Shown here: one piece after another, positions 5,066 through 24,534 of the stretch
Layout: every line of letters starts with the position of its first letter
Position numbering within the stretch: position 1 is the first letter of the stretch
Origin: a virus
Virus record (IMG/VR): IMGVR_UViG_3300032304_001339
Span: 1-33,815 of that record
DNA: 33,815 nucleotides
Strand: one strand, 5' to 3'
Program-made: the position numbers and the translations under genes
Notes under the pieces: generated by a model
The model's input: the letters and a program-made list of their open reading frames with translations, nothing else
Told to the model about the DNA's origin: nothing
The model's database searches: none

Positions 5066-5974
5066 ATGGCCTATATGGCCAACAAACTAAACAGCGTTTC
5101 TATTTTAACGGTTGGAGAGGCTAGGGGCCACAACCTCAAGATCGACCAAACCTCGCTCGAACAAGCGCTCAAAGTGGCGCAAAGCATGAAGCGGATCAAA
5201 GTGACCATGGGCCACGGAGCACCCGTCACTGGCATCCTTGGTTACATCGATAATTTCTTAATCAAAGGCGACCGCCTGCTGGGTGATCTAAACCTCTTTA
5301 ACACTAACGAGGCGCAGTTTGTCGAGCAGCTGGCCCAAGTATTGCCCGAAGGTTTCGGCATATCCCTTACCTTTAGCGGCGTGCCTGAGATCATGGGCGC
5401 TGAACGTTTTGCCAGGGTGACTGAAATCTATGACTGCTCAATCGTTTCTGAGCCGGCCGCCAATCCCGCAGGAATGTTTTCTGCCTTCTCAGCAGTTGAC
5501 ATGAAAAAACTGCAAATGAACGAAGCACCCGTCGAAGTCAAAAAGGAGCTGAGCGAGCCTGCCGTTGTGGCAGTTCCCGCACCCGAAGCTCCTGCCATTG
5601 AAACTCCCGCCGTTGTCGAAGCACCGAAAGCCGAACTGGCTGAAATGCCCGAAGAGAAAAAGGACGAGCAGAAGATGGCCGAGCCTACTCTGACCGACAT
5701 CGCAGCCATGTTGACCAAACTAATCGGCATGCTGACTCCCAAGATCGAAGAGGACGAAGATGACGAGGAGATGGGTTACAAAAAAGAAGAAATGTCCAAG
5801 GCCGACGACAAGGCCGTGACCACTTTGGAAAAAGCCAAGGCCGACGCTGCTGGCGCAGTGGCGGTTCCCGCTGAATCGAGCCAACCGCTCGGCCGGGCAG
5901 AAATCCTCAATCAATTCAACGCGGAAAAGAATCCGGCCCGTCGGTCGGAACTTCTTCGCAAACTCGGACTGTAA
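5066..5974 (+). CDS. Prohead protease / scaffolding fusion
   Basis: Likely head maturation protease fused to scaffold, 302 residues from ATG 5066. The N-terminal ~140 residues carry a pattern like HK97/herpes-assemblin-type proteases: a His in VTMGHG (H50), a Ser in GFGIS (S100) and a following EIYDCSIVSEPAANPAG segment. I infer His and Ser as catalytic. The C-terminal half is Pro/Ala/Glu-rich, then strongly acidic (EEDEDDEEMG), ending in a basic helix GRAEILNQFNAEKNP...LLRKLGL, the layout of a scaffold with a capsid-binding tail. The gene sits between portal and capsid, as expected. TTG 5054 and ATG 5075 are alternative starts; none has a clear Shine-Dalgarno. Confidence 0.75.
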   Translation: MAYMANKLNSVSILTVGEARGHNLKIDQTSLEQALKVAQSMKRIKVTMGHGAPVTGILGYIDNFLIKGDRLLGDLNLFNTNEAQFVEQLAQVLPEGFGISLTFSGVPEIMGAERFARVTEIYDCSIVSEPAANPAGMFSAFSAVDMKKLQMNEAPVEVKKELSEPAVVAVPAPEAPAIETPAVVEAPKAELAEMPEEKKDEQKMAEPTLTDIAAMLTKLIGMLTPKIEEDEDDEEMGYKKEEMSKADDKAVTTLEKAKADAAGAVAVPAESSQPLGRAEILNQFNAEKNPARRSELLRKLGL

Positions 5975-5999
5975 TCCAGTCCACTAGGAGAACACTACA

Positions 6000-6890
6000 A
6001 TGGCCAACACAATCGGAACAACGAATGCCAATGTAATCGCTCAGAGGGCTCTCGAGATCCTCGTGGCAGATTACAGCTTCCTCAGAAATTCTGTAACGGA
6101 TTTCAGCAGCGAAGCAGCTAAATACAACGCGTCAGTCTTTACCCACCGGATCTCTGCGACGACCGCCCAGGACTACTCGCAGGCGAACGGCTACGTAGCG
6201 ACTGCAACAACCCAGACGGACGTGCAGATCACCCTCAACAAGTTTAAGCACGTTTCGTATTCTGTGGACGATCAAGAGCGCACCAGCTCCAACATCAACC
6301 TAATCGAGCGTTTCGCCGGCGCAGCCGCGCATGCTCTCGGTTTGCAGATGGTTGGGGATTTGCTCGCTCTCGTGACTTCCTCCACCTTCACCAGCGCATT
6401 GACGGTTGCTTCCAGCGCCTTCTCCTACCGCTCGGTAGTGTCGGCCGGAATCACCCTCAACAACAGCAACGTGCCAGTCAACGGCCGGTACGCTGTTCTT
6501 AACCCCAGCTTCTACGGCGCTCTCTTGAATGACACGACCGTCGTGGCCAATCCTCAGATCACCGGCGACCTCGTTCGCACGGCTGGGATCGGAAACGTTG
6601 CTGGATTCAACATCAACCAGTACAGCGCAGTGCCTTCCAACAGCATCACGCTCGGCGGATTCTTCGCCCAACAGGAAGCCCTGTTGATCGCGACCCGCGT
6701 TCCTGAGGTGCCAACAGGCGTTCCAATACCCGGAGAGATTTCTGTGGTAACGGAACCCCGCACTGGCCTATCCGTCCAAGTTCGTGAGAACTACGACGTG
6801 GTTAAGGGCCAGCTGCAGCGCACCTACGCTCTGATCTACGGCGTGAAAGCCGGAGAGCCCGCGAGCTTGGTTCGTATCAACGGTAGCTAA
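6000..6890 (+). CDS. Major capsid protein (HK97-type fold expected)
   Basis: Major head subunit, 296 residues. The evidence is position directly after the protease/scaffold and a composition typical of coat proteins: rich in Ala, Thr, Val and Asn, with no cysteine. Characteristic stretches are RISATTAQDYSQANGYV, HVSYSVDDQERTSSN, GRYAVLNPSFYGALLND and a C-terminal GLSVQVRENYDVVKGQLQ...LIYGVKAGEP, which resembles the P-domain end of P22/HK97-like coat proteins. A strong AGGAG Shine-Dalgarno lies about 11 bases before ATG, and a stem-loop follows the stop, both fitting high expression. It is unclear whether a separate decoration protein exists; none is seen. Confidence 0.85.
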   Translation: MANTIGTTNANVIAQRALEILVADYSFLRNSVTDFSSEAAKYNASVFTHRISATTAQDYSQANGYVATATTQTDVQITLNKFKHVSYSVDDQERTSSNINLIERFAGAAAHALGLQMVGDLLALVTSSTFTSALTVASSAFSYRSVVSAGITLNNSNVPVNGRYAVLNPSFYGALLNDTTVVANPQITGDLVRTAGIGNVAGFNINQYSAVPSNSITLGGFFAQQEALLIATRVPEVPTGVPIPGEISVVTEPRTGLSVQVRENYDVVKGQLQRTYALIYGVKAGEPASLVRINGS

Positions 6891-6902
6891 TTCACTCGGG
6901 GA

Positions 6903-6934
6903 GGGCGGTGGGCTGAAAGGCTCACCGCCCTTTC
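6903..6934 (+). terminator. Stem-loop after capsid gene, likely terminator
   Basis: GGGCGGTG (6903-6910) pairs with CACCGCCC (6923-6930). Four more pairs, including G-T wobbles, close a GAAA loop (6915-6918), giving a 12-bp stem. Only a short TTT tract follows. It may terminate part of transcription or protect the capsid message from decay. Confidence 0.7.
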
Positions 6935-6951
6935 CACTTTAAGAAATCCTC

Positions 6952-7251
6952 ATGTCTGAATTCACAGAAGCGTTAAAAGAAAGTCTGGCCGCTCTTTATA
7001 CTCAAACTGGCACAGCGGCCACCATTGGTTCTACTGGGGTTACTGGTATCCTTTCAACAATCACCCGCAAAGAAAGCGTGGAGCTGGGCGGGTTTGATCT
7101 GGATCTAAACTCCACCTTTACCATCGACGTGAGCGCCATCTCATCGGCGCCTACTATCGGATCTATCTTGCTGGCCAACTCGGTCAGCTATCGCGTGGCG
7201 TCGATTGATACTTCTATCGGCAGTTACGTGCTCGGGTTGCGAGAGATTTAA
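6952..7251 (+). CDS. Head-tail connector / head completion protein (candidate)
   Basis: A 99-residue protein after the capsid gene, in the position of lambda FII-type or similar connectors. It contains a helical N-terminus (EFTEALKESLAALY), then beta-rich sequence with FDLDLNSTFTIDVSA and a C-terminal SIDTSIGSYVLGLREI, in keeping with small beta-barrel head-tail joiners. Its start has no Shine-Dalgarno; instead GAAATCCT stands one base before ATG (compare 18706-18713). The next gene starts two bases after its stop. Assignment is by size and gene order. Confidence 0.5.
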   Translation: MSEFTEALKESLAALYTQTGTAATIGSTGVTGILSTITRKESVELGGFDLDLNSTFTIDVSAISSAPTIGSILLANSVSYRVASIDTSIGSYVLGLREI

Positions 7252-7253
7252 CC

Positions 7254-8939
7254 GTGGCAACTCGAAATCCTAAAATCTCCATCTACATGATCGCCGGGCA
7301 CGAGGCCCAATTTATCGACCGCTGCCTTACCGCCTTTAAACCATTCTGCGACGAGCTAGTCGTCTGCATTGCCCAAGGCGGCCGACCTGACGACGGCACG
7401 CGGGCAATCGCCGAGAAGTCAGGCGCCAAGATAGTTGAATATAAAAATGCACCGGCAGGAGCGAGCTGGCCGCACGTCGATAACTTTGCTGCTGCTCGCA
7501 ACACCGCACTGGATGCCTGCACTAGCGAATATGCGGTATGGGTGGATTGCGATGACTTGCCGCATAAAGACCTCAAAAACGCTCTTAAAAGGGGTGTAGA
7601 AGCATTTGAACAGAATCCCAAGCTCGGCATCTATGCAGGCGTCTATGACGTTATAAACGCCAAATTAAGGCCAGTACGTGAGCGCATGGTGCGGCGTATA
7701 GATGGCGTATGGTCTGGGAGGTGGAACTACGCAGTGCATGAGGCGCTGTTGCCTAATGCTGGGCTGGAATCTGTGGGCGAGCAGACGGTATGGGTTGAGC
7801 ATCACCCCGGCGGATATAAGCCAAACAGCGCCGATCGGAATCTCCGCATCTTGCAGGGCCAGTTAAGCGAAGCAGGCAAGTATGCCTACTACTATCAGCA
7901 GGAACTTTTCCTAGGCAATCGCAGGACAGAATCAGAGCCGTGGTCACACGTTGCGGCCGTCTGGCCGGGACAAGAGGCAACGCTGGCTTACGAGGCTGCC
8001 TGCAATCAAGCGACAGCCACGCAAGATCGCACGGTCAGGATCGGCTTATACCAAAAGGCACATCAGATGAACCCTGGGCGAAGGGAAGCGATTTACTATT
8101 TAGCCAGGGAAGAGGCCAGCGTGGGTGCGTGGTTGCAGGCTTACCACTTGCTAAAATCGGCAATGGTTCAGCCCGATCCGGGCGTGAAGATCTGGAACGC
8201 CCAGCGCACCGTGTACGACTTTGAGTGCATCGATCTATATCTTGCGGCATGTAAGGCCGTCGGCGATACGGCCGAGGCAGAAAAGATTGAGAACATGTGG
8301 CGGGCGCAGAAGCCCGTAAAGATTACCGTTTGCCACGCTACGCGAGGCCGCCCACAGGAAGCGATCAACGCCCGCATCTTGTGGATGAAAAAGGCGGCAG
8401 ATCCAGCGTCAGTCGAGTGGATCTACTCAGTCGACGATGACGACCCTAAAGCCGACATGCTGAAAAATTGGGGAATAGTTAAAGGCAAGGGCGGGTGTAT
8501 TGCCGCTTGGAACAGGGCGGCCGAAGTAGCCCGTGGGGAGATTATCATTCAAGGCTCTGACGATTGGGACCCTCCGCTACATTGGGACAAGATAATCAGC
8601 GATAGGATTGGCGATACCAGCAAGCCGAAGGTACTGGCGATTTCAGACGGCCACCGCAAAGACGATCTGCTGTGCATGGCAATCCTCACCAAAGCACGAC
8701 TGCAAGATCAGGGCGCCATATTTGCCGCTGAATATGACGCATGCTCCGGCATATTTTCGGATAATGAATTTTCCAAGAGAGCTGCTTACGACGGCGTCAT
8801 CATTCCTGCCAAGGACATCATATTCACTCACAATAATCCGCTCTTCACCGGCGCAGCACAGGATGCGGAATTTAAACGCCACAACGCCAAGGAGAACTAC
8901 GAGCTTGGCGAAAAGATATTTAAGGAACGCAACCCGTGA
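7254..8939 (+). CDS. Two-domain glycosyltransferase (GT2-like, with helical middle)
   Basis: Probable bifunctional glycosyltransferase, 561 residues. The N-terminal domain (~1-200) resembles the GT2/beta-1,4-glucosyltransferase type: SIYMIAGHEAQFIDRCL, a DDGTRAIAEKSGAKIVEY substrate loop, FAAARNTAL and an acidic metal site VDCDD (97-101). Residues ~215-345 look helical and TPR-like (AIYYLAREEASVGAWLQAYHLL). A second GT-A-type domain begins near 352 (ITVCHATRGRP), with DDDD (~393-396), GGCIAAWNRAAEVARGE and GSDDWDPP (~434). It is first in a five-gene overlapped run between head and tail genes. The GTG start is two bases after the connector stop, and its stop overlaps the next start. Likely role: adding sugars to a phage or host surface molecule; donor and acceptor unknown. 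Confidence 0.85.
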   Translation: MATRNPKISIYMIAGHEAQFIDRCLTAFKPFCDELVVCIAQGGRPDDGTRAIAEKSGAKIVEYKNAPAGASWPHVDNFAAARNTALDACTSEYAVWVDCDDLPHKDLKNALKRGVEAFEQNPKLGIYAGVYDVINAKLRPVRERMVRRIDGVWSGRWNYAVHEALLPNAGLESVGEQTVWVEHHPGGYKPNSADRNLRILQGQLSEAGKYAYYYQQELFLGNRRTESEPWSHVAAVWPGQEATLAYEAACNQATATQDRTVRIGLYQKAHQMNPGRREAIYYLAREEASVGAWLQAYHLLKSAMVQPDPGVKIWNAQRTVYDFECIDLYLAACKAVGDTAEAEKIENMWRAQKPVKITVCHATRGRPQEAINARILWMKKAADPASVEWIYSVDDDDPKADMLKNWGIVKGKGGCIAAWNRAAEVARGEIIIQGSDDWDPPLHWDKIISDRIGDTSKPKVLAISDGHRKDDLLCMAILTKARLQDQGAIFAAEYDACSGIFSDNEFSKRAAYDGVIIPAKDIIFTHNNPLFTGAAQDAEFKRHNAKENYELGEKIFKERNP

Positions 8940-9700
8940 TTCACACGCACAACGCACTGCGCCTAGGCGACAACCTAGTGCAGTTAAACTTTCTACGTCG
9001 GCTATGCCTTCAAAATCCAGATATCGAGATCACGCACTATCACAATCCAGAGCTGTGCAAGTTTGAGGAGATTGATGCGTTGCGAAGCGACATGTCTTTA
9101 CGGCTACACATTCGACCAATCAGCGAAGCGCCGGCCGATAGTATTGATTCTTGGCGTAATGCAGGCGGATATTGGGAGCGTCACCCCGAAAAATTAAACT
9201 TTGCCAAATTTCATCTATGTTGGTTTGAGGAACTGGCCAGCAGGATGTGCGTAAAGAATCCTATACGGAAAGTCGATGACCTTCTATTTGACTATCCAGC
9301 TTTAGATTCCTTTATTCCGATGGCGCCAGATTTCGACATCGTTGTGATAAATTCGCCAGGGCTGTCTGGTCAATTCACAAACTTTAACCCCGATGATTTT
9401 CGCAACCTAGTATCTAAACTAGTTAGCAAAGGGCATCGCGTAATTACCACAGTCGCTACTGGATTATGCCCGGCATTTGATGGCAAGAATGTGACTTGGA
9501 TCGGAGCCACTGCGGCCAAGGCAAAAGCTGTCATCGGAACATCCACCGGGCCGAGCTGGCCGTGCCTAAACGTTCACAACAAAAATGCCTTCCATTTGCT
9601 GTGTGCGGACACCGAAACAGTCGTATTTACTAAGCGCGGGCAGATGGCCAGGAGCGCATTTCACGCCCTCCATATTCTTGAAGAGGAGGGCTTGCTGTGA
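8936..9700 (+). CDS. Glycosyltransferase-like protein, GT-B / family 9-like
   Basis: A 254-residue protein starting at GTG 8936 in a four-base overlap with the previous gene. The N-terminus (LGDNLVQLNFLRRLCLQNPDIEITHYHN) matches the first Rossmann strand and helix of heptosyltransferase/GT9-type GT-B enzymes. A second half starting near residue 135 (DIVVINSPGLSGQFTNFNPDDF...LVSKGHRVITTVATG) resembles the nucleotide-sugar-binding half, with VIGTSTGPSWPCLN near residue 200 as a candidate donor loop. It is shorter than typical GT9 enzymes (~320-350), so substrate and activity are uncertain. Context beside a GT2-like enzyme supports glycan work. Confidence 0.6.
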   Translation: MIHTHNALRLGDNLVQLNFLRRLCLQNPDIEITHYHNPELCKFEEIDALRSDMSLRLHIRPISEAPADSIDSWRNAGGYWERHPEKLNFAKFHLCWFEELASRMCVKNPIRKVDDLLFDYPALDSFIPMAPDFDIVVINSPGLSGQFTNFNPDDFRNLVSKLVSKGHRVITTVATGLCPAFDGKNVTWIGATAAKAKAVIGTSTGPSWPCLNVHNKNAFHLLCADTETVVFTKRGQMARSAFHALHILEEEGLL

Positions 9701-10215
9701 AGAAGGAGCTGACGCAGGCAATGGATTTACTGGCGGCCGATCCGGCCGTTAGGTTCATAGGCTACGGGGTAAAGATAGGTGGGCGGGCAGCAGGCACGCT
9801 CAATAATGTTGCGGATTCACAACTGATCGAAACGCCTGTCGCTGAAAATCTGATGGTGGGCTTGGCTACTGGCTTGAGCCTAGCTGCACTCAAGCCTGTC
9901 GTTTTTATTGAGCGGATGGATTTTATTCTGAATGCACTGGACGCCATCGTAAATCACCTGGGCGCAGCTCAGCATATTAGCTGCAATCAATTCAAACCTG
10001 CCGCCATCTTGCGGGTAGTTATAGGAAACAAAAACAAGCCACTCTACACGGGGCCAACGCATACGCAGGACTTCAGCGAAGCTCTCAGGAGTATGATTGA
10101 TTTCCCAATCGTCGAACTAAAGAAGGAAAGCGTAGTGAACGAGTATCAAAGCGCACTGGATAGATTAAGCGAGGGAACTTCCACCATGTTGGTCGAGCGA
10201 AAGGATGAGTGGTGA
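9697..10215 (+). CDS. Thiamine-diphosphate enzyme, pyrimidine-binding subunit
   Basis: A 172-residue stand-alone Pyr domain, like the N-terminal part of transketolase C-terminal subunits or E1-beta. The signature is LIETPVAENLMVGLATGLSLAALKPVVFIE: the glutamate in AEN (E50) corresponds to the residue that activates the thiamine pyrimidine ring, and the following glycine-rich helix and MDFILNALDAIVNHLGA match the family. It lacks the transketolase C-terminal domain that normally follows in E1-beta (~320 residues). The partner PP domain is two genes downstream (11300-11914). It starts at GTG 9697, overlapping the previous stop. With its partner it would cleave or transfer a carbon unit next to a carbonyl; substrate unknown. 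Confidence 0.8.
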   Translation: MKKELTQAMDLLAADPAVRFIGYGVKIGGRAAGTLNNVADSQLIETPVAENLMVGLATGLSLAALKPVVFIERMDFILNALDAIVNHLGAAQHISCNQFKPAAILRVVIGNKNKPLYTGPTHTQDFSEALRSMIDFPIVELKKESVVNEYQSALDRLSEGTSTMLVERKDEW

Positions 10216-11303
10216 AGCAGAACAAGTACAGCGACCTCAAAATCTTTTCGTTTCCAGACAAGATAGCCAGTTTTCGCGACGACATTATCACCGCACCCAT
10301 CTACGTGCGGATTAAGCCGACGAATATCTGTAACCACGCCTGCCGTTTCTGCGTCTATTCTGACGGCACAACTCGGCACAAGGATCGGCCTGACTTGCAC
10401 CTACAGGCTGGCATGCACACCAGCATGAACGAACGGGACGTTATGCCACGAGATAAGGCGCTAGAACTAATAGAGGATCTTTCAAACATCGGAACTAAAG
10501 CCGTCACCTTCAGCGGCGGCGGAGAGCCTTTACTGCATAAAGACATTGTCGAGATTATGACTAAGACAGTTTCGTCTGGGTTGGATCTATCCATTATTAC
10601 CAACGGCCAACTGCTTGCAGGGGAAAGGGCAGAAGTATTGGGCAAGGCAAAGTGGGTGAGGATTTCGATGGACTACACAAGCGCAGAGCAGATGGCGTCT
10701 AGCCGTAACGTGCCCGACAGATCGTTTGATTCCGTAATGCAGAATATTAAAAACTTTTCCAACACGAAAACGGAGAGCTGCGATCTTGGGATTAACTTTA
10801 TTATTACCCGCTACAATTATGAGGGACTAGTTCCGTTCGCTAAGCAGCTCAAAGATTCAGGCGTGAGTAACGTCCGCTTCTCGCCCGTGTACGTGCAGAA
10901 CTTCAAAGAATATCACAACACGATTGCGACCAGGGTGCGGGAGCAACTAGCCGAATGCCAATCCTTTTGTGATTCAGATTTTACCATCAACACGACCTAT
11001 GATCTGGATAGCCCAAGTAAGTCGCCCGTTCGGCCATTCCATCGCTGTCTTTACGCTCAGGCCGTTTGCGTGGTAGGTGCGGATCTTAATATCTACGCAT
11101 GCCACAATACCGCATACAGCAATCACGGCCGGATCGCATCCATGAAGGATCAATCATTTAGCCAGGCATGGTTTGGAGAAGAGGCGAAAGCATGGCACAA
11201 GAACTTTAACCCTGGCGTTAGTTGCCTGCATGAATGCGCCAATCACGCAAAGGTGGCGCTGTTTGAAAAGCTGGCCACCGATAGTCACGACGCCTTTGTA
11301 TGA
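10209..11303 (+). CDS. Radical SAM enzyme with C-terminal cysteine-rich (SPASM-like) region
   Basis: A 364-residue radical S-adenosylmethionine enzyme. The [4Fe-4S] motif CX3CX2C is at C41, C45 and C48 (CNHACRFC). The SAM-binding GGGEP motif is at 103-107 (TFSGGGEPLLH), and the strand SIITNGQLL follows as in other members. The C-terminal part has further cysteines (RCLYAQAVCVV...NIYACHN near 279-300, and GVSCLHECANH near 337-347), suggesting auxiliary cluster ligands of SPASM/twitch type. It starts at GTG 10209 within the previous gene and ends overlapping the next ATG. Lying between the two halves of a thiamine-diphosphate enzyme and behind glycosyltransferases, it may act in sugar or small-molecule modification. 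The exact reaction cannot be told. Confidence 0.9.
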   Translation: MVKQNKYSDLKIFSFPDKIASFRDDIITAPIYVRIKPTNICNHACRFCVYSDGTTRHKDRPDLHLQAGMHTSMNERDVMPRDKALELIEDLSNIGTKAVTFSGGGEPLLHKDIVEIMTKTVSSGLDLSIITNGQLLAGERAEVLGKAKWVRISMDYTSAEQMASSRNVPDRSFDSVMQNIKNFSNTKTESCDLGINFIITRYNYEGLVPFAKQLKDSGVSNVRFSPVYVQNFKEYHNTIATRVREQLAECQSFCDSDFTINTTYDLDSPSKSPVRPFHRCLYAQAVCVVGADLNIYACHNTAYSNHGRIASMKDQSFSQAWFGEEAKAWHKNFNPGVSCLHECANHAKVALFEKLATDSHDAFV

Positions 11304-11914
11304 ACAAGCAGGATCTGATTGATTTTGAACTGCGCATTAAGGCGCTATTTGAGCAGGGCAAGCTGCCATATCTGATTCACCTATGCGGGGGGAATGAGGA
11401 TCAGCTCATCGAGATATTTAAAGACATCAAGCCAGGCGATTGGATCTTCTCAAGCCACAGATCCCACTACCACTATTTGCTCGCTGGCGGAGATCCTGAC
11501 ATGCTCGAGCAGATGATTAAAGAAGGTCGTTCCATGTTTGTCTTTGACCGTAAACTTAATTTCTACACGTCAAGCGTGTTGGCTGGCACTTGCGGGATAG
11601 CGGCCGGAGTGGCGCACGCATTAAAAGAGCAAGGAAGCTCGGCAAAAGTCTGGTGTTTCCTGGGCGATGGAGCTGAGGATGAGGGCCATTTTTATGAGGC
11701 CGTGAACTATGTGGCCGGGGCGGATCTACCCTGCACCTTTATTATTGAGGATAACGATCGATCCGTGGATACGCCAAAGGCAGTTAGGGGAAAGGCCACG
11801 ATGACTTGGCCTGATTGCGTCAAGCGATACCACTACACCCCAACATTTCCGCATGGTGGCGCTGGATGTAAAACCATGGTCACGTTTGATCCGTCGATTC
11901 GTCCGATCTGGTGA
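11300..11914 (+). CDS. Thiamine-diphosphate enzyme, PP subunit (E1-alpha-like, short)
   Basis: A 204-residue E1-alpha-like subunit. It has the thiamine-diphosphate motif GDG (122-124) followed about 27 residues later by N152, with the intervening EGHFYEAVNYVAGADLP typical of E1-alpha and transketolase N-terminal subunits. Upstream, WIFSSHRSHYHYLLAGGD and GIAAGVAHALKEQG match the same family. The usual C-terminal third of E1-alpha (~320-360 residues) is missing: after VDTPKAVRGKATMTW the protein ends at RPIW. The start overlaps the radical SAM stop (ATGA). The partner is the Pyr-domain protein at 9697-10215. Size and split resemble two-subunit decarboxylases more than full E1, but sequence motifs are E1/transketolase-like. 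Confidence 0.85.
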   Translation: MNKQDLIDFELRIKALFEQGKLPYLIHLCGGNEDQLIEIFKDIKPGDWIFSSHRSHYHYLLAGGDPDMLEQMIKEGRSMFVFDRKLNFYTSSVLAGTCGIAAGVAHALKEQGSSAKVWCFLGDGAEDEGHFYEAVNYVAGADLPCTFIIEDNDRSVDTPKAVRGKATMTWPDCVKRYHYTPTFPHGGAGCKTMVTFDPSIRPIW

Positions 11915-11931: not shown

Positions 11932-12378
11932 ATGCCCGCCGTCACCATGCTTGATCGTTTGATTGAAGCTGCTTTCCAAGAGCTTCTAACTACAACCGTT
12001 ACCGGGGTGACCTATCACTTGTCCCACGACAAGACAGAGAACATGCCGCCCTCGATCGTCATTAAAGCCACGTTAGGAACCGAAGAGCCGGTGCAGGGAT
12101 CTGGCGTGTTTAGCGTTCCGGTTGAAATCGTGGTGGATGATTCTTATGACGACACAACTCTAGACGCACATACTCGAAAATGCTCCAAGGTGTTGCAGGC
12201 TTTCTATGATTCAAGCCCGTTGGCGACCAGGTTGAACGCTACCACGGCCATCGGATCTGCCCGTTGTTACAACGCCAAGGTGGATTCTATTGAGCCTGAG
12301 GCTGACGATGAAGAGCGTACAATGCGTCGTACCTATAAGCTGGCAGTCATCGCACAACCGAATTCGATCGCAAGTTGA
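11932..12378 (+). CDS. Tail terminator / gpU-like protein (candidate)
   Basis: A 148-residue protein opening the tail genes after the metabolic cassette. It has an N-terminal helix (LDRLIEAAFQELL), beta strands (YHLSHDKTENMPPSIVIKA, VPVEIVVDDSYDD), a helix TRKCSKVLQAFYDSSPLA and a final beta strand with MRRTYKLAVIAQ. This alternation fits the gpU/tail-terminator fold, and gene order (before tube, before G/G-T) agrees. A GAGGAG Shine-Dalgarno lies about 11 bases upstream of ATG, and GTGACA lies 21 bases before it. Assignment is by order and fold pattern. Confidence 0.55.
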   Translation: MPAVTMLDRLIEAAFQELLTTTVTGVTYHLSHDKTENMPPSIVIKATLGTEEPVQGSGVFSVPVEIVVDDSYDDTTLDAHTRKCSKVLQAFYDSSPLATRLNATTAIGSARCYNAKVDSIEPEADDEERTMRRTYKLAVIAQPNSIAS

Positions 12379-16981: not shown

Positions 16982-18685
16982 ATGGCTCAATCCCTAGATA
17001 TTTACATCGATACAACTAGCGGAACTTTAGTATCTCGCGGAGCCGCAAGGGATGGAATTTTGCCTACACTTACCCGCAACGACTCCTACAACCTTCGCAT
17101 CCGCTTGCAAGAGAGAGATCAGGAGGGCCTTCTGCGAGATTTAGATATAAGCGGTTCTTCGCTTAAGCTTGGGATCGGCGGGATTGATGGCGATCCAACC
17201 GACGGTCAATTCAGGCTAGTCCTCAATAGCATTACTTCATCAGCCATCTCTTTTAATGCGACTCCGCTTCAGGTTTACAACGCCATCTCCGCAATCGCAG
17301 GCACGGGCGTTACTGTCACAACCTACGGCAAGGAGAACTTTTCTTATCTAATCACAGCCGCCACGGTCAACACGGCTTTATCCTTTGGCGGTTCAGCCTT
17401 CACGCTGTTCCCGACCAGCTCTGTCCTAGTAAACACCCGTAGATTCCCCGCCGCATCGGTAGCGGCCCAGCAAGTCATTCGCCTGGTTCGCAACCCCGCC
17501 GTCTATGCGGATACGTTTACCGCGGCCAGTACGGCCGGAGTTATCAGCTTGACTCAGCTTCAAGTCGGATCGTCCGGTACAACTGGAACGAATCAGACAT
17601 GGCGGCTGAGCGTTGGCCCGGATGCAGAAGGCGGAAACATTGTTCTGAACTACGGTGCAAATAGCACGACCGGGATTGCCATCGGAGCCGCCGCGGCCAG
17701 CTTTTCTGAAGCGCTTTCGGCCGTTACAGGCATCGGATTCGGGAACATCAGCGTGGAGGCCGGCAACAATCAGGGCGACTATACGATCAGTTTTGTTAGA
17801 AATCTAGGCCAGCAGAACGTCACGACCGCTCTCACCCTGGACGCTAGTGGCGTAATCTTTGGCAACTTCCGGCAAAGCACGATCACCATGGCGACGGCCG
17901 AGCTGGACGAGCTTTTTGCCGAAGCCGGCACAGATACCGTCACGCCTAAGATTGAGGTCGAGCTTACCCAGGGCGGAACGCCTAAGACGGTTCTGCAATC
18001 TGATATTACAGTCAGGCGCGATTTAATTACCACGGGATCTGCCGTTCCGGCCGCTCAAGCCAGCTACTACACGAAAGCAGAGGCAGACGCTGCCTTTGTC
18101 GAGGACAGCGCCACAAACGTCGACGCGACCAACCGCAAGCTATACAACTCAAGCGGATCAGTGTTCCTCGATTGGCAAAATAACACGATTGGAACGGGGG
18201 CGACTGTATTGGATCTATCCGGCACGGCCGTCACAATCACAGACGGCTACAACATTGGGATTGGTTCAACCACTGGTACAAAGATTGGGGTTAGCACGGC
18301 CTCAAAACTTGCTTTCTTTGGCTCTACTCCAATCACTCAACCCGCCAATATCAATGTCGTCTCTGGTCTAATTAATGTTGGGCTGATTGCAAGCGGAGCA
18401 ACCTACGGAGTGTTGCCGCAATCTCCAAGGACACTTACAGCAGTAACTTATACCACATTTGGACTAGTTCCATCCAATAATGTTATTTCTAAAACAGTTA
18501 CAATTACTGGATGCCAACTGAATGACATTGTTTTGCTTGGGTTGCCCGCTGATATTGAGGAAGGACTTGCTTTTAGTGGTCACGTTGTTACTGCTAATCA
18601 AATTCATATTGATGCCCTAAATGTGACTGGAAGTGGAAAGACACAAAACGCAACAACATTCAGAGTCACCGTCATCGGTTATTAA
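16982..18685 (+). CDS. Tail fibre protein
   Basis: A 567-residue fibre. The N-terminal ~130 residues (AQSLDIYIDTTSGTLVSRG...PTLTRNDSYNLRIRLQE) look like a baseplate-attachment domain. The middle is repetitive beta-rich sequence with Ala/Thr/Gly. YYTKAEADAAF (~360) is the trimerisation-type motif common in phage fibres. The C-terminus from ~430 (TGTKIGVSTASKLAFFGSTPITQP...SGLINVGLIASGATYG) matches a widespread fibre tip, ending RVTVIGY. Base composition changes at about 18300: the last ~380 bases are clearly more A+T-rich, suggesting an exchanged tip. An AGGAG precedes ATG by 9 bases, and TTGACAC stands 21 bases upstream. Confidence 0.8.
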   Translation: MAQSLDIYIDTTSGTLVSRGAARDGILPTLTRNDSYNLRIRLQERDQEGLLRDLDISGSSLKLGIGGIDGDPTDGQFRLVLNSITSSAISFNATPLQVYNAISAIAGTGVTVTTYGKENFSYLITAATVNTALSFGGSAFTLFPTSSVLVNTRRFPAASVAAQQVIRLVRNPAVYADTFTAASTAGVISLTQLQVGSSGTTGTNQTWRLSVGPDAEGGNIVLNYGANSTTGIAIGAAAASFSEALSAVTGIGFGNISVEAGNNQGDYTISFVRNLGQQNVTTALTLDASGVIFGNFRQSTITMATAELDELFAEAGTDTVTPKIEVELTQGGTPKTVLQSDITVRRDLITTGSAVPAAQASYYTKAEADAAFVEDSATNVDATNRKLYNSSGSVFLDWQNNTIGTGATVLDLSGTAVTITDGYNIGIGSTTGTKIGVSTASKLAFFGSTPITQPANINVVSGLINVGLIASGATYGVLPQSPRTLTAVTYTTFGLVPSNNVISKTVTITGCQLNDIVLLGLPADIEEGLAFSGHVVTANQIHIDALNVTGSGKTQNATTFRVTVIGY

Positions 18686-18714
18686 GCTTGGGCTAATGCC
18701 CTAACGAAATCCTT

Positions 18715-19356
18715 ATGGCTTTTCTTTTTGCCAAGTCGTTTCCATTTTGCGTTGAGGAAAGCACCGCACAAACTGGCGAAGGAACAGACTATCCATTTGA
18801 AATGACGCTAGAAGATGCGATGGAGTTATACTGGAAATTTCTATCATTAAAAATAACAGACAATCTTGTTTATTCTTTTGTAAACAATGGTACTGCGGGA
18901 AGTTGCGTGGCCACCCACTCATTTTCAAATACCATAGAAACATTAAGTTACTGGCCTAACAAAATGAGCGAAATGATTTGCCCTCCTCCTCCATTCTTTT
19001 ATGGAGAGGCCATCGGCGTTGGATCAATGACAAGCACAAATACTACCAGCCCAACCAATACAACTGAATTTTATCAACTAGTATATGCTCAAAGTGTTAT
19101 TACAAAAAAAATAAATAATACTTACAAATTTTTTCCCAGTTTCCTTTTAGAAATATCAACTGATTTAGAGTATAGTTCACGTTATAGCACTAAAGATAAT
19201 GGTGGCATAGCGTCTCAAATAGTAACCCTTAAAACTAGCAATAAGGAATATAAAACAAATTTATATGCCAGCGGGTTCAATCCCGGCGATCATTCTGAAA
19301 TATCTTTGTCTGGTTCGGTAGTTATTGAGAAAGCAAGTGATCGCACTCCTGAATGA
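18715..19356 (+). CDS. A+T-rich tail-region protein, unknown
   Basis: A 213-residue protein with much lower G+C than the packaging genes. It begins AFLFAKSFPFCVEES and contains FEMTLEDAMELYWKFLSLKI, a Thr/Asn-rich stretch (MTSTNTTSPTNTTEF) and beta-rich tail (SEISLSGSVVIEKA). I do not recognise it; position among fibres suggests a virion adhesion part. GAAATCCT lies one base before the ATG, and a short GGGC/GCCC hairpin (18690-18701) precedes it. The last 32 bases overlap the next gene. Confidence 0.6.
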   Translation: MAFLFAKSFPFCVEESTAQTGEGTDYPFEMTLEDAMELYWKFLSLKITDNLVYSFVNNGTAGSCVATHSFSNTIETLSYWPNKMSEMICPPPPFFYGEAIGVGSMTSTNTTSPTNTTEFYQLVYAQSVITKKINNTYKFFPSFLLEISTDLEYSSRYSTKDNGGIASQIVTLKTSNKEYKTNLYASGFNPGDHSEISLSGSVVIEKASDRTPE

Positions 19357-19864
19357 TATTGCCAAGGCCGGAGGGTATTTTTGCGGAGGCTTTGTAAGAG
19401 ATTATCTTATCCGTGGTGAATCCTTTAACGACATTGATTTCTGTTTTGCTGGCAAGTGGCCTAGCCCTTATGCGTCTTGGCCTTTAATTAGAACAGAGAT
19501 TGGAAGGGAAACAGCGGAAACGCATATTGATGGGATGAAATATCATTGTGTAAATCTTGAGGCCATAGACTTAACTTGTAATCTGTTCTGCTTCGATGGG
19601 CTTAAGGTATATCCAAGACCTTGCTTTCAATACAGAGACAAGCCAGTAGATTATTTTAAGGCTTGGGAAATGCTTTTAGAAAAGAAGTTTGTGACGCAAA
19701 TCCCAGCAATTAAGAATTTAAAGCTACGAGCCAAGCTAACTAAAAGGGGCTGGATAGATTGCGGAATTGATTTGGTTGTGAATACTCTTGCAATACCCCC
19801 GCAATTCGGACCGTGGTCAGACTTTACCCTGGCGAAAGAAAGGTTTGATGCTCTAGCCCTTTGA
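19325..19864 (+). CDS. Nucleotidyltransferase, polymerase-beta fold (CCA/poly(A)-polymerase head-like)
   Basis: A 179-residue protein with the active-site signature of class II nucleotidyltransferases: GGYFCGGFVRDYLIRG followed by NDIDFCF (G-x-x-R-D, then D-x-D), the head-domain motif of tRNA CCA-adding enzymes and poly(A) polymerases. A third acidic residue may be in EAIDLTCNLF (~78-88). The RNA-binding domains of those enzymes are absent, so this is a minimal nucleotide transferase acting on an unknown RNA, protein or small molecule. The start is TTG 19325, overlapping the previous gene; GTG 19337 is an alternative. It is odd company for fibre genes. Its TGA stop forms part of a TTGACAC motif. 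Confidence 0.75.
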   Translation: MRKQVIALLNDIAKAGGYFCGGFVRDYLIRGESFNDIDFCFAGKWPSPYASWPLIRTEIGRETAETHIDGMKYHCVNLEAIDLTCNLFCFDGLKVYPRPCFQYRDKPVDYFKAWEMLLEKKFVTQIPAIKNLKLRAKLTKRGWIDCGIDLVVNTLAIPPQFGPWSDFTLAKERFDALAL

Positions 19865-19882
19865 CACGGTTTTTTAACTTAT

Positions 19883-19945
19883 ATGGCATACGCCGCCACC
19901 GTTTTTCTATTCGCCGCTGATATCGCTTACCTTTGGGCAAAATAA
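19883..19945 (+). CDS. Tiny hydrophobic ORF (20 residues)
   Basis: ATG 19883 to TAA encodes a 20-residue hydrophobic peptide (MAYAATVFLFAADIAYLWAK), a possible single membrane helix. It follows TTGACAC by 22 bases and ends three bases before the next ATG, so it fills the gap between two genes exactly. No Shine-Dalgarno is visible. It could be a real micro-protein or a leader for the next gene. Confidence 0.4.
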   Translation: MAYAATVFLFAADIAYLWAK

Positions 19946-19948
19946 GCC

Positions 19949-20818
19949 ATGTACCTCGGCCTCGGCCTGAGACTTGGCTCTGGAACGTTTGCTGGCTTTG
20001 ACGCTGACGCCGTTGCCTATTTTGATCGGGCAGGCGTGACTGACGCTACTGCAAAAAGTCAGATCAATGCGTTTGTGAAAGGCGTGAAGGATTTGGGACT
20101 TTACAATAATATGGTTTCTTGGCCTCTGCGCTCTGCTCAAAATGCTGGAACTGGATCGACCGCTTATAGCTTGGGTGGCCTTGGTATTTTTAACGCAACA
20201 AAGACAGCCGGCATTAGTTGGCAATCAAATGGGCTTTTAGCCAACACAGCCAGCCAAAGTGTATCATTTTCAAATCCATTAGATTTAGCAGCAATAAACA
20301 CGGCCTCATTATTTGCCGTTCTTGATGCCACATCAAATACTGGCTCTGGTTGGTTTTCAAATCTTTTTGCCATAAGAACTGATGGAGTTAATCCTAATAA
20401 CAAGGGGTTAAAATTTTTACTTTATTCTGACGCTTCTTCAAATACTTTAGAGGGCGGCGGCAGTAATATATTTCCAGATAACGGAGAATTGAAGAGGTCG
20501 TATAATAGGGGGGCTGGAGCATATATTGGAACTGGGTTTCATTCTTTGGGAGTATCAATCCAAGCCAACCCAAATACAGTAGAATTTACTTATGATGGTA
20601 GCTCGCAAGGAAGTTTAGCAGACACAACGACATCTACAACATTTATAAATGTTGGTTCTTCTAATTACTTTTTGGGAACAAGCGATTTTTCTGGAAATGT
20701 ATTAACGATGACTGGTTCTTTTTATTCTGTATTCAACACATATTTAAGTAATTCTGTACGAACATCATTAAGCACACTCTACAAAATCACCCTCGGCGAT
20801 GGCCTTGGATTGCCGTAG
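19949..20818 (+). CDS. Fibre-associated adhesion protein, lectin-like
   Basis: A 289-residue protein of a type common in tail regions. The N-terminus (FDADAVAYFDRAGVTDATA...INAFVKGVKDLGL...WPLRSAQNAGTGSTAYSLGG) is a well-known phage segment, and the rest resembles a concanavalin/LamG-like jelly-roll (FHSLGVSIQANPNTVEFTYDG). It probably binds a host surface glycan. The gene is A+T-rich from about 20200 onward, unlike its first 200 bases, again suggesting mosaic exchange. Confidence 0.65.
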   Translation: MYLGLGLRLGSGTFAGFDADAVAYFDRAGVTDATAKSQINAFVKGVKDLGLYNNMVSWPLRSAQNAGTGSTAYSLGGLGIFNATKTAGISWQSNGLLANTASQSVSFSNPLDLAAINTASLFAVLDATSNTGSGWFSNLFAIRTDGVNPNNKGLKFLLYSDASSNTLEGGGSNIFPDNGELKRSYNRGAGAYIGTGFHSLGVSIQANPNTVEFTYDGSSQGSLADTTTSTTFINVGSSNYFLGTSDFSGNVLTMTGSFYSVFNTYLSNSVRTSLSTLYKITLGDGLGLP

Positions 20819-20844
20819 CCTTTTGACACACGCCATCCAGAAGT

Positions 20845-21180
20845 ATGGCCGCTGGCGTATATAATTTAACTATTGAACAGGGCGTGGATCTCGCCTTGGA
20901 AGTAGCGGTTAAAGACGGCACCGGCGCGACGTATTCGCTTGTTGGCGCTACTGCCGCCGCTCAAATTCGCGATACCTACAACGGAAATCTGCTTGCGGAG
21001 TTTGCCGCCGTCACAGCTACCGGCACGACTGGCAGCCTTACCCTGGCGTTGAACGCTGCTACTGCCTCCGCCCTACCTATTAGCGGCGGAAAGTGGGATC
21101 TGCTTCTTACCACGTCGGCCGCCACAAAAGTCCGTCTCTTACAAGGCTCGGTCGTCATAGCGGGCGAGGTGACTGAATAA
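20845..21180 (+). CDS. Small beta-sandwich virion protein (candidate)
   Basis: A 111-residue Ala/Thr/Leu-rich protein beginning AAGVYNLTIEQGVDLALEV, with VGATAAAQIRDTYNGNLLAEF and a closing KVRLLQGSVVIAGEVTE. This NLTIEQG...R-L-GxVxIxxEVT layout is frequent in small phage tail proteins with an Ig-like or beta-sandwich fold. It is G+C-richer than its neighbours. TTGACAC lies 22 bases before ATG, and its stop overlaps the next small ORF (TAATG). Confidence 0.6.
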   Translation: MAAGVYNLTIEQGVDLALEVAVKDGTGATYSLVGATAAAQIRDTYNGNLLAEFAAVTATGTTGSLTLALNAATASALPISGGKWDLLLTTSAATKVRLLQGSVVIAGEVTE

Positions 21181-23805: not shown

Positions 23806-24016
23806 TCTGGCGCTCTGCTCCTGTGCGACAACCTCGCAAACTCAGGACGGCCCGCCGCCAAGCCCGGACACAATCAGCTACTTTATCTACGAGTGGGACA
23901 AGGCCGAGCGAACAAACAAGCCCTGCCCACAGGCTTACCGAGATCTGTTTGCGCAATCGCTCAAAGCGCTATCTGATAGCTTGGCAGAAACTCAACGCGA
24001 GCGAGCGAGGCAGTGA
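23768..24016 (+). CDS. Outer-membrane spanin candidate (Rz1-like lipoprotein)
   Basis: An 82-residue lipoprotein from ATG 23768. The signal peptide is MPGGLNALLLVLSLALCSC (lipobox LCSC, candidate C19). A Pro-rich segment (DGPPPSPD) like those of Rz1 proteins follows, then a helical part ending SLAETQRERARQ. It starts within the preceding spanin candidate and overlaps the endolysin start. An upstream in-frame ATG at 23723 would add a non-signal leader and is less likely. Confidence 0.6.
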   Translation: MPGGLNALLLVLSLALCSCATTSQTQDGPPPSPDTISYFIYEWDKAERTNKPCPQAYRDLFAQSLKALSDSLAETQRERARQ

Positions 24017-24534
24017 CCAGCCTTAGTGAGGCAAGCTCCCGCACCCTGCGGGCGATTGATTCGCTAGACGCCAGCTTCCAAAGGCAGGTGAGGGGATGGG
24101 TAAATGAAATGGTAACGAGCCGGATCGAGCCGCTGATCTACTGCGGCCGTCGCACCATGGAGGAGCAGGCCGCCCTTTATGCTAAAGGTAGAACGGACGG
24201 CAGCAGCAAGATCGTCACCAAGGCCAAGCCAGGGGAAAGCTATCACAACTACGGGCTGGCGTTTGATTGGGTGCCGTTAAAACAGTCAGGCAAAAACGCG
24301 GATCTGTGGATTGCAGACTGGAATAACGAGACGGCTTTTCGCCTAGGCGAGCACGTGGGAATTTCATTCCGTTTGGCTGGCATTAGCTGGGAAACAGGCC
24401 ACTTGCAAAGCAGTGACTATAAGAGCTGGCGTGACATCTCACGCAACCCTGTGGAACAAGTGAAGGCCAACGACATCCGTAAAAAGAGCAAGGCCACAAG
24501 CCTCGTCAGTAACCGCCCGTGGAGTTCACGATGA
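24013..24534 (+). CDS. Endolysin, M15 peptidase (L-Ala-D-Glu / VanY type)
   Basis: A 173-residue peptidoglycan peptidase. The family pattern is clear: RTMEEQAALYAKGRT, KIVTKAKPGESYHNYGLAFDW with zinc ligands H78 and D85, and a third ligand H130 in ETGHLQ. The layout matches T5-like/M15C endolysins. There is no signal or SAR domain, so release needs a holin, which fits the neighbouring small membrane proteins. The start is GTG 24013, overlapping the previous stop. The C-terminal 25 residues are basic. Confidence 0.9.
   Translation: MTSLSEASSRTLRAIDSLDASFQRQVRGWVNEMVTSRIEPLIYCGRRTMEEQAALYAKGRTDGSSKIVTKAKPGESYHNYGLAFDWVPLKQSGKNADLWIADWNNETAFRLGEHVGISFRLAGISWETGHLQSSDYKSWRDISRNPVEQVKANDIRKKSKATSLVSNRPWSSR

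Follow-up and report, generated by a model that had tools for sequence, protein, structure and literature searches.

A gene cassette beside the capsid gene of a tailed phage may make a C2-branched sugar and attach it to the virion

Why would a tailed phage keep five genes for what look like sugar-modifying enzymes between its major capsid gene and its tail genes? The question is raised by a viral sequence of 33,815 nucleotides, IMG/VR record IMGVR_UViG_3300032304_001339, the whole of which we call the window. Positions 7254-11914 hold five genuine open reading frames (ORFs), all where a first-pass annotation of the sequence had placed them, and each can be assigned to a family or a fold (Table 1). 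They encode a two-headed glycosyltransferase with a GT2 domain (GT2), a GT-B protein with a GT9-like fold (GTB), the Pyr-domain subunit of a thiamine-diphosphate (ThDP) enzyme (Pyr), a radical S-adenosylmethionine enzyme (rSAM), and the PP-domain subunit (PP). One small gene separates this cassette from the capsid gene. It is highly probable that the cassette is a functional sugar-modifying set. More specifically, we give a probability of roughly one half to a resident phage pathway that makes a C2-branched sugar and attaches it, most likely to virion proteins.

The cassette is not a chance arrangement, because its gene order is kept and its genes are constrained. GTB, Pyr, rSAM, and PP stand in this order in all 40 loci of the window's phage group that have sufficient upstream flank. 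When compared with five relatives, and wherever dS could be estimated, dN/dS for the five genes is 0.02-0.12; all five are under purifying selection. Relatives with 75-98% identity have the same genes at the same site, flanked by capsid and tail genes. As the first-pass annotation had noticed, the cassette resembles its neighbors in composition (GC of 0.486-0.542 for the cassette genes and 0.486-0.566 for the neighbors). Site, order, and similar composition are common to about 50 relatives, which agrees with its view that the cassette is resident rather than newly arrived. It had also proposed two checks of whether the pathway is functional, and both came out in favor: the homologues do co-occur, and the catalytic residues of the ThDP subunits and of rSAM are conserved. 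Since cellular homologues exist, the cassette might instead be non-functional host DNA that was captured in passing, but the selection, the intact motifs, and the fixed site and order imply that this is almost certainly wrong, and we rejected it.

Three of the junctions are 4-nt overlaps (GTGA for GT2/GTB and GTB/Pyr, ATGA for rSAM/PP). The fourth, Pyr/rSAM, had been described in the same way, but it fits only if rSAM begins with the GTG at 10212, which gives GTGA; with the listed start at 10209, the overlap is 7 nt. The start at 10212 is probably the true one, because the 4-nt overlap results and because the N-terminus of the homologues agrees. GT2 begins 2 nt past the end of the upstream gene.

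Pyr and PP together resemble a minimal E1-type ThDP enzyme, as expected from the first-pass assignment of their domains. Pyr is homologous to the beta subunit of pyruvate dehydrogenase (PDH) E1, and PP is homologous to the alpha subunit. In Pyr, E50 and H122 are invariant across 18 sequences and align with the Glu and His of E1-beta from human and bacterial E1; in PP, the GDG...DN motif is conserved, and GDG-N aligns with human PDH E1-alpha. The C-terminal transketolase_C domain is absent: the 172-aa Pyr stops after the Pyr domain, and even the forms in which the subunits are fused have just 391-403 aa. These homologies, along with the label "transketolase central region-containing protein" on a cyanophage relative, might point to auxiliary central-carbon metabolism, with a transketolase or a pyruvate dehydrogenase that raises flux in the host. 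But besides lacking the C-terminal domain, PP scores just 87 bits against the curated PDH E1-alpha equivalog and does not reach the cutoff of 393.9 bits; we saw no E2 or E3 in those parts of the window that were scanned; and the neighboring genes encode glycosyltransferases, a sugar oxidase, or sugar-nucleotide enzymes. We consider this role very unlikely and rejected it because of the minimal pair, the missed cutoff, and the sugar-gene neighbors.

The minimal Pyr/PP lineage is largely viral, and cellular copies are few. In a scan of a viral collection, the PP family was encoded on hundreds of viral stretches. A scan of genomes found at least 5 clear cellular relatives. ThDP relatives were present in 6 of 300 genomes sampled from the family of Prochlorococcus and Synechococcus (three of the six are divergent) and in 1 of 395 genomes sampled from the phylum of locus L086.

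To see which enzymes accompany PP, we assembled 349 loci with 144 distinct PP sequences, which form 41 clusters at 80% identity, and we counted partners within 5 kb. Among the 144 distinct loci, 83 have a member of the rSAM family, 54 have a zinc alcohol dehydrogenase (Zn-ADH), and none has both. (Another 4 loci have only rSAM-B, a second family discussed below, and 3 truncated loci have neither.) The naive chance of seeing no overlap is 1e-10, but the independent evidence amounts to about 5 switches: on a maximum-likelihood tree of the 41 clusters, the partner changed at least 5 times. For example, L252, which has rSAM, falls with strong support inside a clade of cyanophages that bear Zn-ADH. 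Either partner lies tight against the ThDP gene (median gap of -4 nt for rSAM and -1 nt for Zn-ADH). Because two unrelated redox enzymes exchange in one slot, we suggest that they carry out the same reaction, the oxidation of an alcohol. There is a precedent in the 2-deoxystreptamine pathways, where either BtrN, a radical SAM enzyme, or an NAD-dependent dehydrogenase is used. Many of the Zn-ADH loci have an extra short-chain dehydrogenase/reductase, which is a candidate for the reductase of the branch ketone.

The ThDP pair can be swapped as well. In four contigs, the only such cases found in the viral collection (L218, positions 5203-7001; L223; L225; and L226), the Pyr/PP pair is gone, and its slot holds proteins of 213 aa and 151 aa and a methyltransferase-like protein. 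These phages are otherwise close to the window (capsid 92-98% and rSAM 94-98% identical) and retain both glycosyltransferases and rSAM. The 213-aa protein matches the N-terminal chain of a split transketolase (6yak, E = 1.6e-19), and the 151-aa protein matches the Pyr domains of DXS and transketolase. A 2025 review describes two classes of ThDP enzymes for the C2 branching of keto-sugars, E1-type enzymes and split transketolases (PMC12247030). The E1-type class takes acetyl from pyruvate, as demonstrated in vitro for KbDH; for the split transketolases, addition of hydroxyacetyl is proposed, and an oxidoreductase makes the ketone first (PMC12247030). AviB1/AviB2 and Pau11/Pau12 are E1-like pairs from antibiotic pathways, and in paulomycin biosynthesis, a ketoreductase works after the E1-like pair (PMC4425429, PMC4753412).

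The radical SAM enzyme recognized at first pass has an intact cluster motif (C41, C45, and C48) and four more cysteines (C280, C298, C339, and C343, with C-X17-C spacing); all seven are invariant in 16 sequences. We liken the four-cysteine site to what we take to be the ligands of the auxiliary cluster in BtrN. The predicted structure (pLDDT 85.8) has as its neighbors in the PDB DesII, SuiB, BlsE, PqqE, anSME, and BtrN (Foldseek). DesII (2e-16), SuiB, and BlsE (TM 0.65/0.71) rank above BtrN (E = 3e-10), and a search of the PDB with sequence only did not separate DesII, BlsE, MoaA, and BtrN. Of these neighbors, DesII, BlsE, and BtrN have sugars or cyclitols as substrates: DesII dehydrogenates TDP-D-quinovose at C3' (PMC11434129), and BtrN oxidizes the cyclitol 2-deoxy-scyllo-inosamine (PMC9012708).

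Some other radical SAM genes turned up in these loci. rSAM-B is 24-28% identical to rSAM and occurs with the ThDP enzyme in mostly cellular or divergent loci (L057:5878-6930, L085, L086, L089, and L338); in L086, several radical SAM genes stand in tandem, next to LptB- and RpoN-like genes. The rSAM gene of L061 (5145-7268, + strand) is interrupted, just before the third Cys of CX3CX2C, by an insert that resembles an intein; it is about 350 aa long, starts with CLVAGTRVV, and ends with VVHN ahead of the Cys. A different and short radical SAM protein (about 250 aa) is common to a Zn-ADH locus (L070:5437-6222) and an rSAM locus (L061:7265-8005).

Relatives of the cassette also suggest a link to sugars. 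In two loci from the Prochlorococcus family, Zn-ADH and a fused ThDP enzyme adjoin homologues of GmhA, HldD, HldE, and GmhB, and in L088, HldD, HldE, and GmhB are next to the same two genes. In picocyanobacterial genomes, a divergent split ThDP subfamily (L425, L426, and L427) lies in GDP-heptose-type clusters. Its neighbors there are genes resembling GmhA, HddA, and GmhB, along with DegT, a nucleotidyltransferase, a GDP-sugar enzyme of the epimerase type, and a radical SAM protein that binds B12. These three loci have neither an rSAM-family nor a Zn-ADH oxidase; by analogy with yersiniose, a dehydratase could supply the ketone. In L338, the genes for an adenylyltransferase, a kinase, a GmhA-like protein, PP, and Pyr are in a row. 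Across the flanking sequence that we examined, heptose genes are near just 11 of the 41 clusters, so heptose as the substrate is only a lead.

We propose the following route. rSAM would abstract hydrogen from a carbinol group of the sugar and, by means of its auxiliary Fe-S cluster, oxidize that group to a ketone, as the Zn/NAD alcohol dehydrogenase would do in the sister loci. The Pyr/PP heteromer would form an acyl-ThDP carbanion, for which pyruvate or some other 2-oxo acid is the simplest source. Its addition of the C2 unit to the ketone would yield a branch with a tertiary alcohol. The two transferases, one GT9-like and one two-headed, would build or transfer the glycan. Judging from these comparisons of genes, ketone formation followed by a C2 graft is reasonably probable. 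The exclusivity of rSAM and Zn-ADH, the swap of E1-type for transketolase-type proteins, the nearby heptose genes of relatives, and the GT9-like fold of GTB all lend weight to the first-pass proposal of an unusual sugar. Observed directly are the genes and their overlaps, the selection, the intact motifs, the folds, the exclusive partners, the swap of the ThDP pair, and the adjacent capsid genes; the ketone, the C2 donor, the identity of the sugar, and the virion as the target are our inferences.

The same parts might carry out other chemistry. The ThDP enzyme might cleave a keto-sugar or make an unusual ketose or aldose, as transketolase or DXS would, and rSAM might epimerize, dehydrate, or deoxygenate. 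PP does match the DXP synthase profile PF13292, the L338 operon would allow a role at the level of the precursor, and among the relatives of rSAM, BlsE decarboxylates while SuiB and PqqE form cross-links. However, a plain NAD/Zn alcohol dehydrogenase has repeatedly replaced rSAM, and dehydration or epimerization would not be expected of both enzymes. L425-L427 lack both oxidases, but DegT and the GDP-sugar epimerase/dehydratase-type enzyme could provide a ketone there. Overall, we consider other chemistry to be unlikely.

Where would the sugar go? Both transferases identified at first pass are borne out. The GT2 domain scores 48 bits (the gathering cutoff is 23.3), and the second half of that protein matches a glycosyltransferase family, phrog_14945. 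GTB had no family match in profile searches (including PF01075, or GT9, among the Pfam families), but when we compared its predicted structure to the PDB, the top 20 matches were all of the GT9 type (among them WaaC, WaaF, and TibC; for WaaC, E = 1.2e-6 and TMq = 0.61). The first-pass annotation had left attachment to the virion or to a host glycan as alternatives, and capsid genes favor the virion as the putative target. Using identified capsid proteins as queries, we found that PP is preceded, at a distance of 3-7 kb, by a capsid gene on its own strand in 12 clusters: 2 with P22-like capsids, 4 with HK97-type capsids (PF05065), 5 with DUF6260/phrog_771, and 1 with Phage_capsid_4. (In other clusters, the cassette is near genes for the tape measure, the terminase, or tail fibers.) Because four unrelated capsid families adjoin the cassette, descent of the whole module is hard to credit, and co-expression with capsid assembly fits. 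From its place immediately behind the major capsid gene, we would expect the cassette to be expressed late and its product, most likely, to decorate virion proteins. On the basis of gene context, we lean slightly towards the virion as the target of the product.

Alternatively, the product of the same sugar chemistry might modify the host's envelope, either its lipopolysaccharide (LPS) or its capsule. Such a change, made late in infection, could for instance prevent superinfection or hide receptors on debris. The cyanophage copies lie within LPS-type clusters (PMC3037559), cellular homologues are found in ADP- or GDP-heptose clusters or amid chromosomal genes for lipopolysaccharide transport, and GTB has a GT9-like fold. 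But the five proteins include no membrane protein or flippase (the only hydrophobic stretch resembling a membrane span is one marginal 19-mer in Pyr), and a late structural site next to four unrelated capsid families would be odd for an envelope modifier. We consider modification of the envelope to be possible but somewhat unlikely. Another target might be DNA, as glycosyltransferases and radical SAM enzymes both occur in phage pathways for modifying bases. But there was no thymidylate-synthase-like protein or hydroxymethylase among the window's ORFs that we scanned (small ORFs were only partly scanned), a ThDP C-C ligase is foreign to known base modification, and the neighborhood is that of a capsid gene; for these reasons we rejected DNA hypermodification as highly improbable.

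Several observations weigh against a branched sugar on the virion. First, the fold neighbors of rSAM include the peptide maturases SuiB and PqqE, so the fold is not unique to sugar oxidation, and E1 and transketolase enzymes are also capable of cleaving C-C bonds. Second, the roughly 5 independent switches of partner are fewer than the raw counts suggest, and some Zn-ADH loci have other radical SAM proteins (the short protein, as in L070, and in one locus, L278, a remote rSAM-like protein), so exclusivity holds for the window's rSAM family and not for radical SAM enzymes overall. Third, 24 of the 41 clusters had no match to a structural gene (few queries were used), and the cyanophage copies are away from the capsid gene, in an LPS-type cluster. 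Finally, we recognized no heptose-synthesis genes in the window, and the cassette would therefore act on a sugar nucleotide from the host or on a sugar that is already attached.

Antibiotics and bacterial LPS have yielded descriptions of C2-branched sugars, and we are not aware of any route to such a sugar in viruses. If a capsid-linked pathway is correct, then phages devote about 3-5 kb of a genome of about 34 kb to this chemistry, which implies strong selection on the surface chemistry of the particle, and phage genes labeled "transketolase" would move from carbon metabolism to the making of glycans. The natural swaps (rSAM for a dehydrogenase, and E1-type for transketolase-type proteins) render the proposed order of reactions directly testable. 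More broadly, and tentatively, unrelated tailed phages might each have independently set an interchangeable sugar oxidase and an interchangeable ThDP enzyme for C2 grafting beside their major capsid gene, and so put a branched sugar on the capsid.

The first-pass annotation had placed the cassette in a head-tail block. Profile matches for the terminase, the portal, a P22-like major capsid protein, and the tape measure support this, while its "connector" and "tail terminator" were named by position only. The terminase is at most 31% identical to those of cultured phages, so there is no close cultured relative. Elsewhere in the window, the G+C content falls past the tail genes, in a region where two ORFs were scanned and neither had a Pfam match, and a VanY-type carboxypeptidase is likely a lysis enzyme. 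In another locus (L067:3797-6961, + strand), a single 1055-aa ORF appears to combine, in one frame, a methyltransferase, a DNA-ligase-like domain, and an XkdF prohead protease.

Table 1. The cassette and other features of the window
Feature	Position	Strand	Evidence
Major capsid protein, P22-coat-like	6000..6890	+	PF11651, 1.2e-7; phrog_283, 3.5e-31
Small gene between capsid gene and cassette ("connector" by position only)	6952..7251	+	Conserved neighbor; no Pfam or PHROG match
GT2: glycosyltransferase, N-terminal GT2 (GT-A) domain and second glycosyltransferase-like half	7254..8939	+	PF00535, 1.7e-12, aa 9-142; phrog_13126, aa 6-343; phrog_14945, aa 356-554
GTB: compact GT-B protein, GT9 (heptosyltransferase)-like fold	8936..9700	+	AlphaFold model, pLDDT 94.1; PDB fold matches
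Pyr: Pyr-domain subunit of minimal E1-type ThDP enzyme, without C-terminal domain, 172 aa	9697..10215	+	PF02779, 3e-6; PDH E1-beta relatives
rSAM: radical SAM enzyme, twitch-like, CX3CX2C	10209..11303 (start likely GTG 10212)	+	PF04055, 3.3e-19; weak SPASM
PP: PP-domain subunit of minimal E1-type ThDP enzyme, 204 aa	11300..11914	+	PF00676 (E1_dh), 3.2e-18; phrog_34187, 3.7e-72; GDG...DN motif
Gene straight after cassette ("tail terminator" by position only)	11932..12378	+	Conserved neighbor; no Pfam or PHROG match
Region of low G+C	18001-21000		G+C down to 0.41-0.45, about 0.5-0.58 nearby
VanY-type D-Ala-D-Ala carboxypeptidase, likely lysis enzyme	24013-24534

How does the cassette compare to known systems? 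The first-pass annotation knew of no described cassette of this make-up, and our search of the literature did not find one either. Among phages, the "transketolase central region" protein of cyanophages S-SM2 and P-TIM68 (phrog_34187) belongs to the same ThDP family (42-57% identity), but there PP and Pyr are fused, the partner is Zn-ADH, and the genes lie in an LPS-like cluster; the function of the LPS-type genes of cyanophages was left open (PMC3037559). An uncultured phage of 735 kb (LR756501, a record without annotation) has Pyr, rSAM, and PP in the same order, with identities of 51%, 39%, and 59%, but C-methyltransferases and a nucleotide-sugar epimerase-type gene surround them. Prophage cassettes for seroconversion (gtr) have a membrane flippase and a membrane-bound glucosyltransferase, and our cassette has neither. 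In mycobacteriophages, phage glycosyltransferases decorate capsid or tail proteins, according to PMC11256854, which cites Freeman 2023. Our cassette would be alike in that phage glycosyltransferases act on proteins of the particle. To our knowledge, sugar-building radical SAM or ThDP enzymes have not been described for that system.

Among bacterial enzymes, rSAM shares the radical SAM core, the auxiliary-cluster cysteines, and neighboring folds with BtrN, DesII, and BlsE, but the identity is just 13-17% or so. YerE, from yersiniose biosynthesis, is also proposed to graft C2 onto a keto-sugar, before a ketoreduction, but its domain make-up is another: YerE is a flavoprotein with a single chain and belongs to the decarboxylase superfamily. 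In AviB1/AviB2, Pau11/Pau12, and KbDH-alpha/beta (alphaKADH2), as in the phage pair, the E1-alpha-like subunit is separate from the E1-beta-like one, and the genes lie in a cluster for sugar tailoring. The phage subunits are shorter (204 and 172 aa for PP and Pyr vs. 325 and 345 aa for Pau11 and Pau12) and lack the C-terminal domain, and unlike these bacterial pairs, they are found in capsid loci, with a dedicated rSAM or Zn-ADH alongside.

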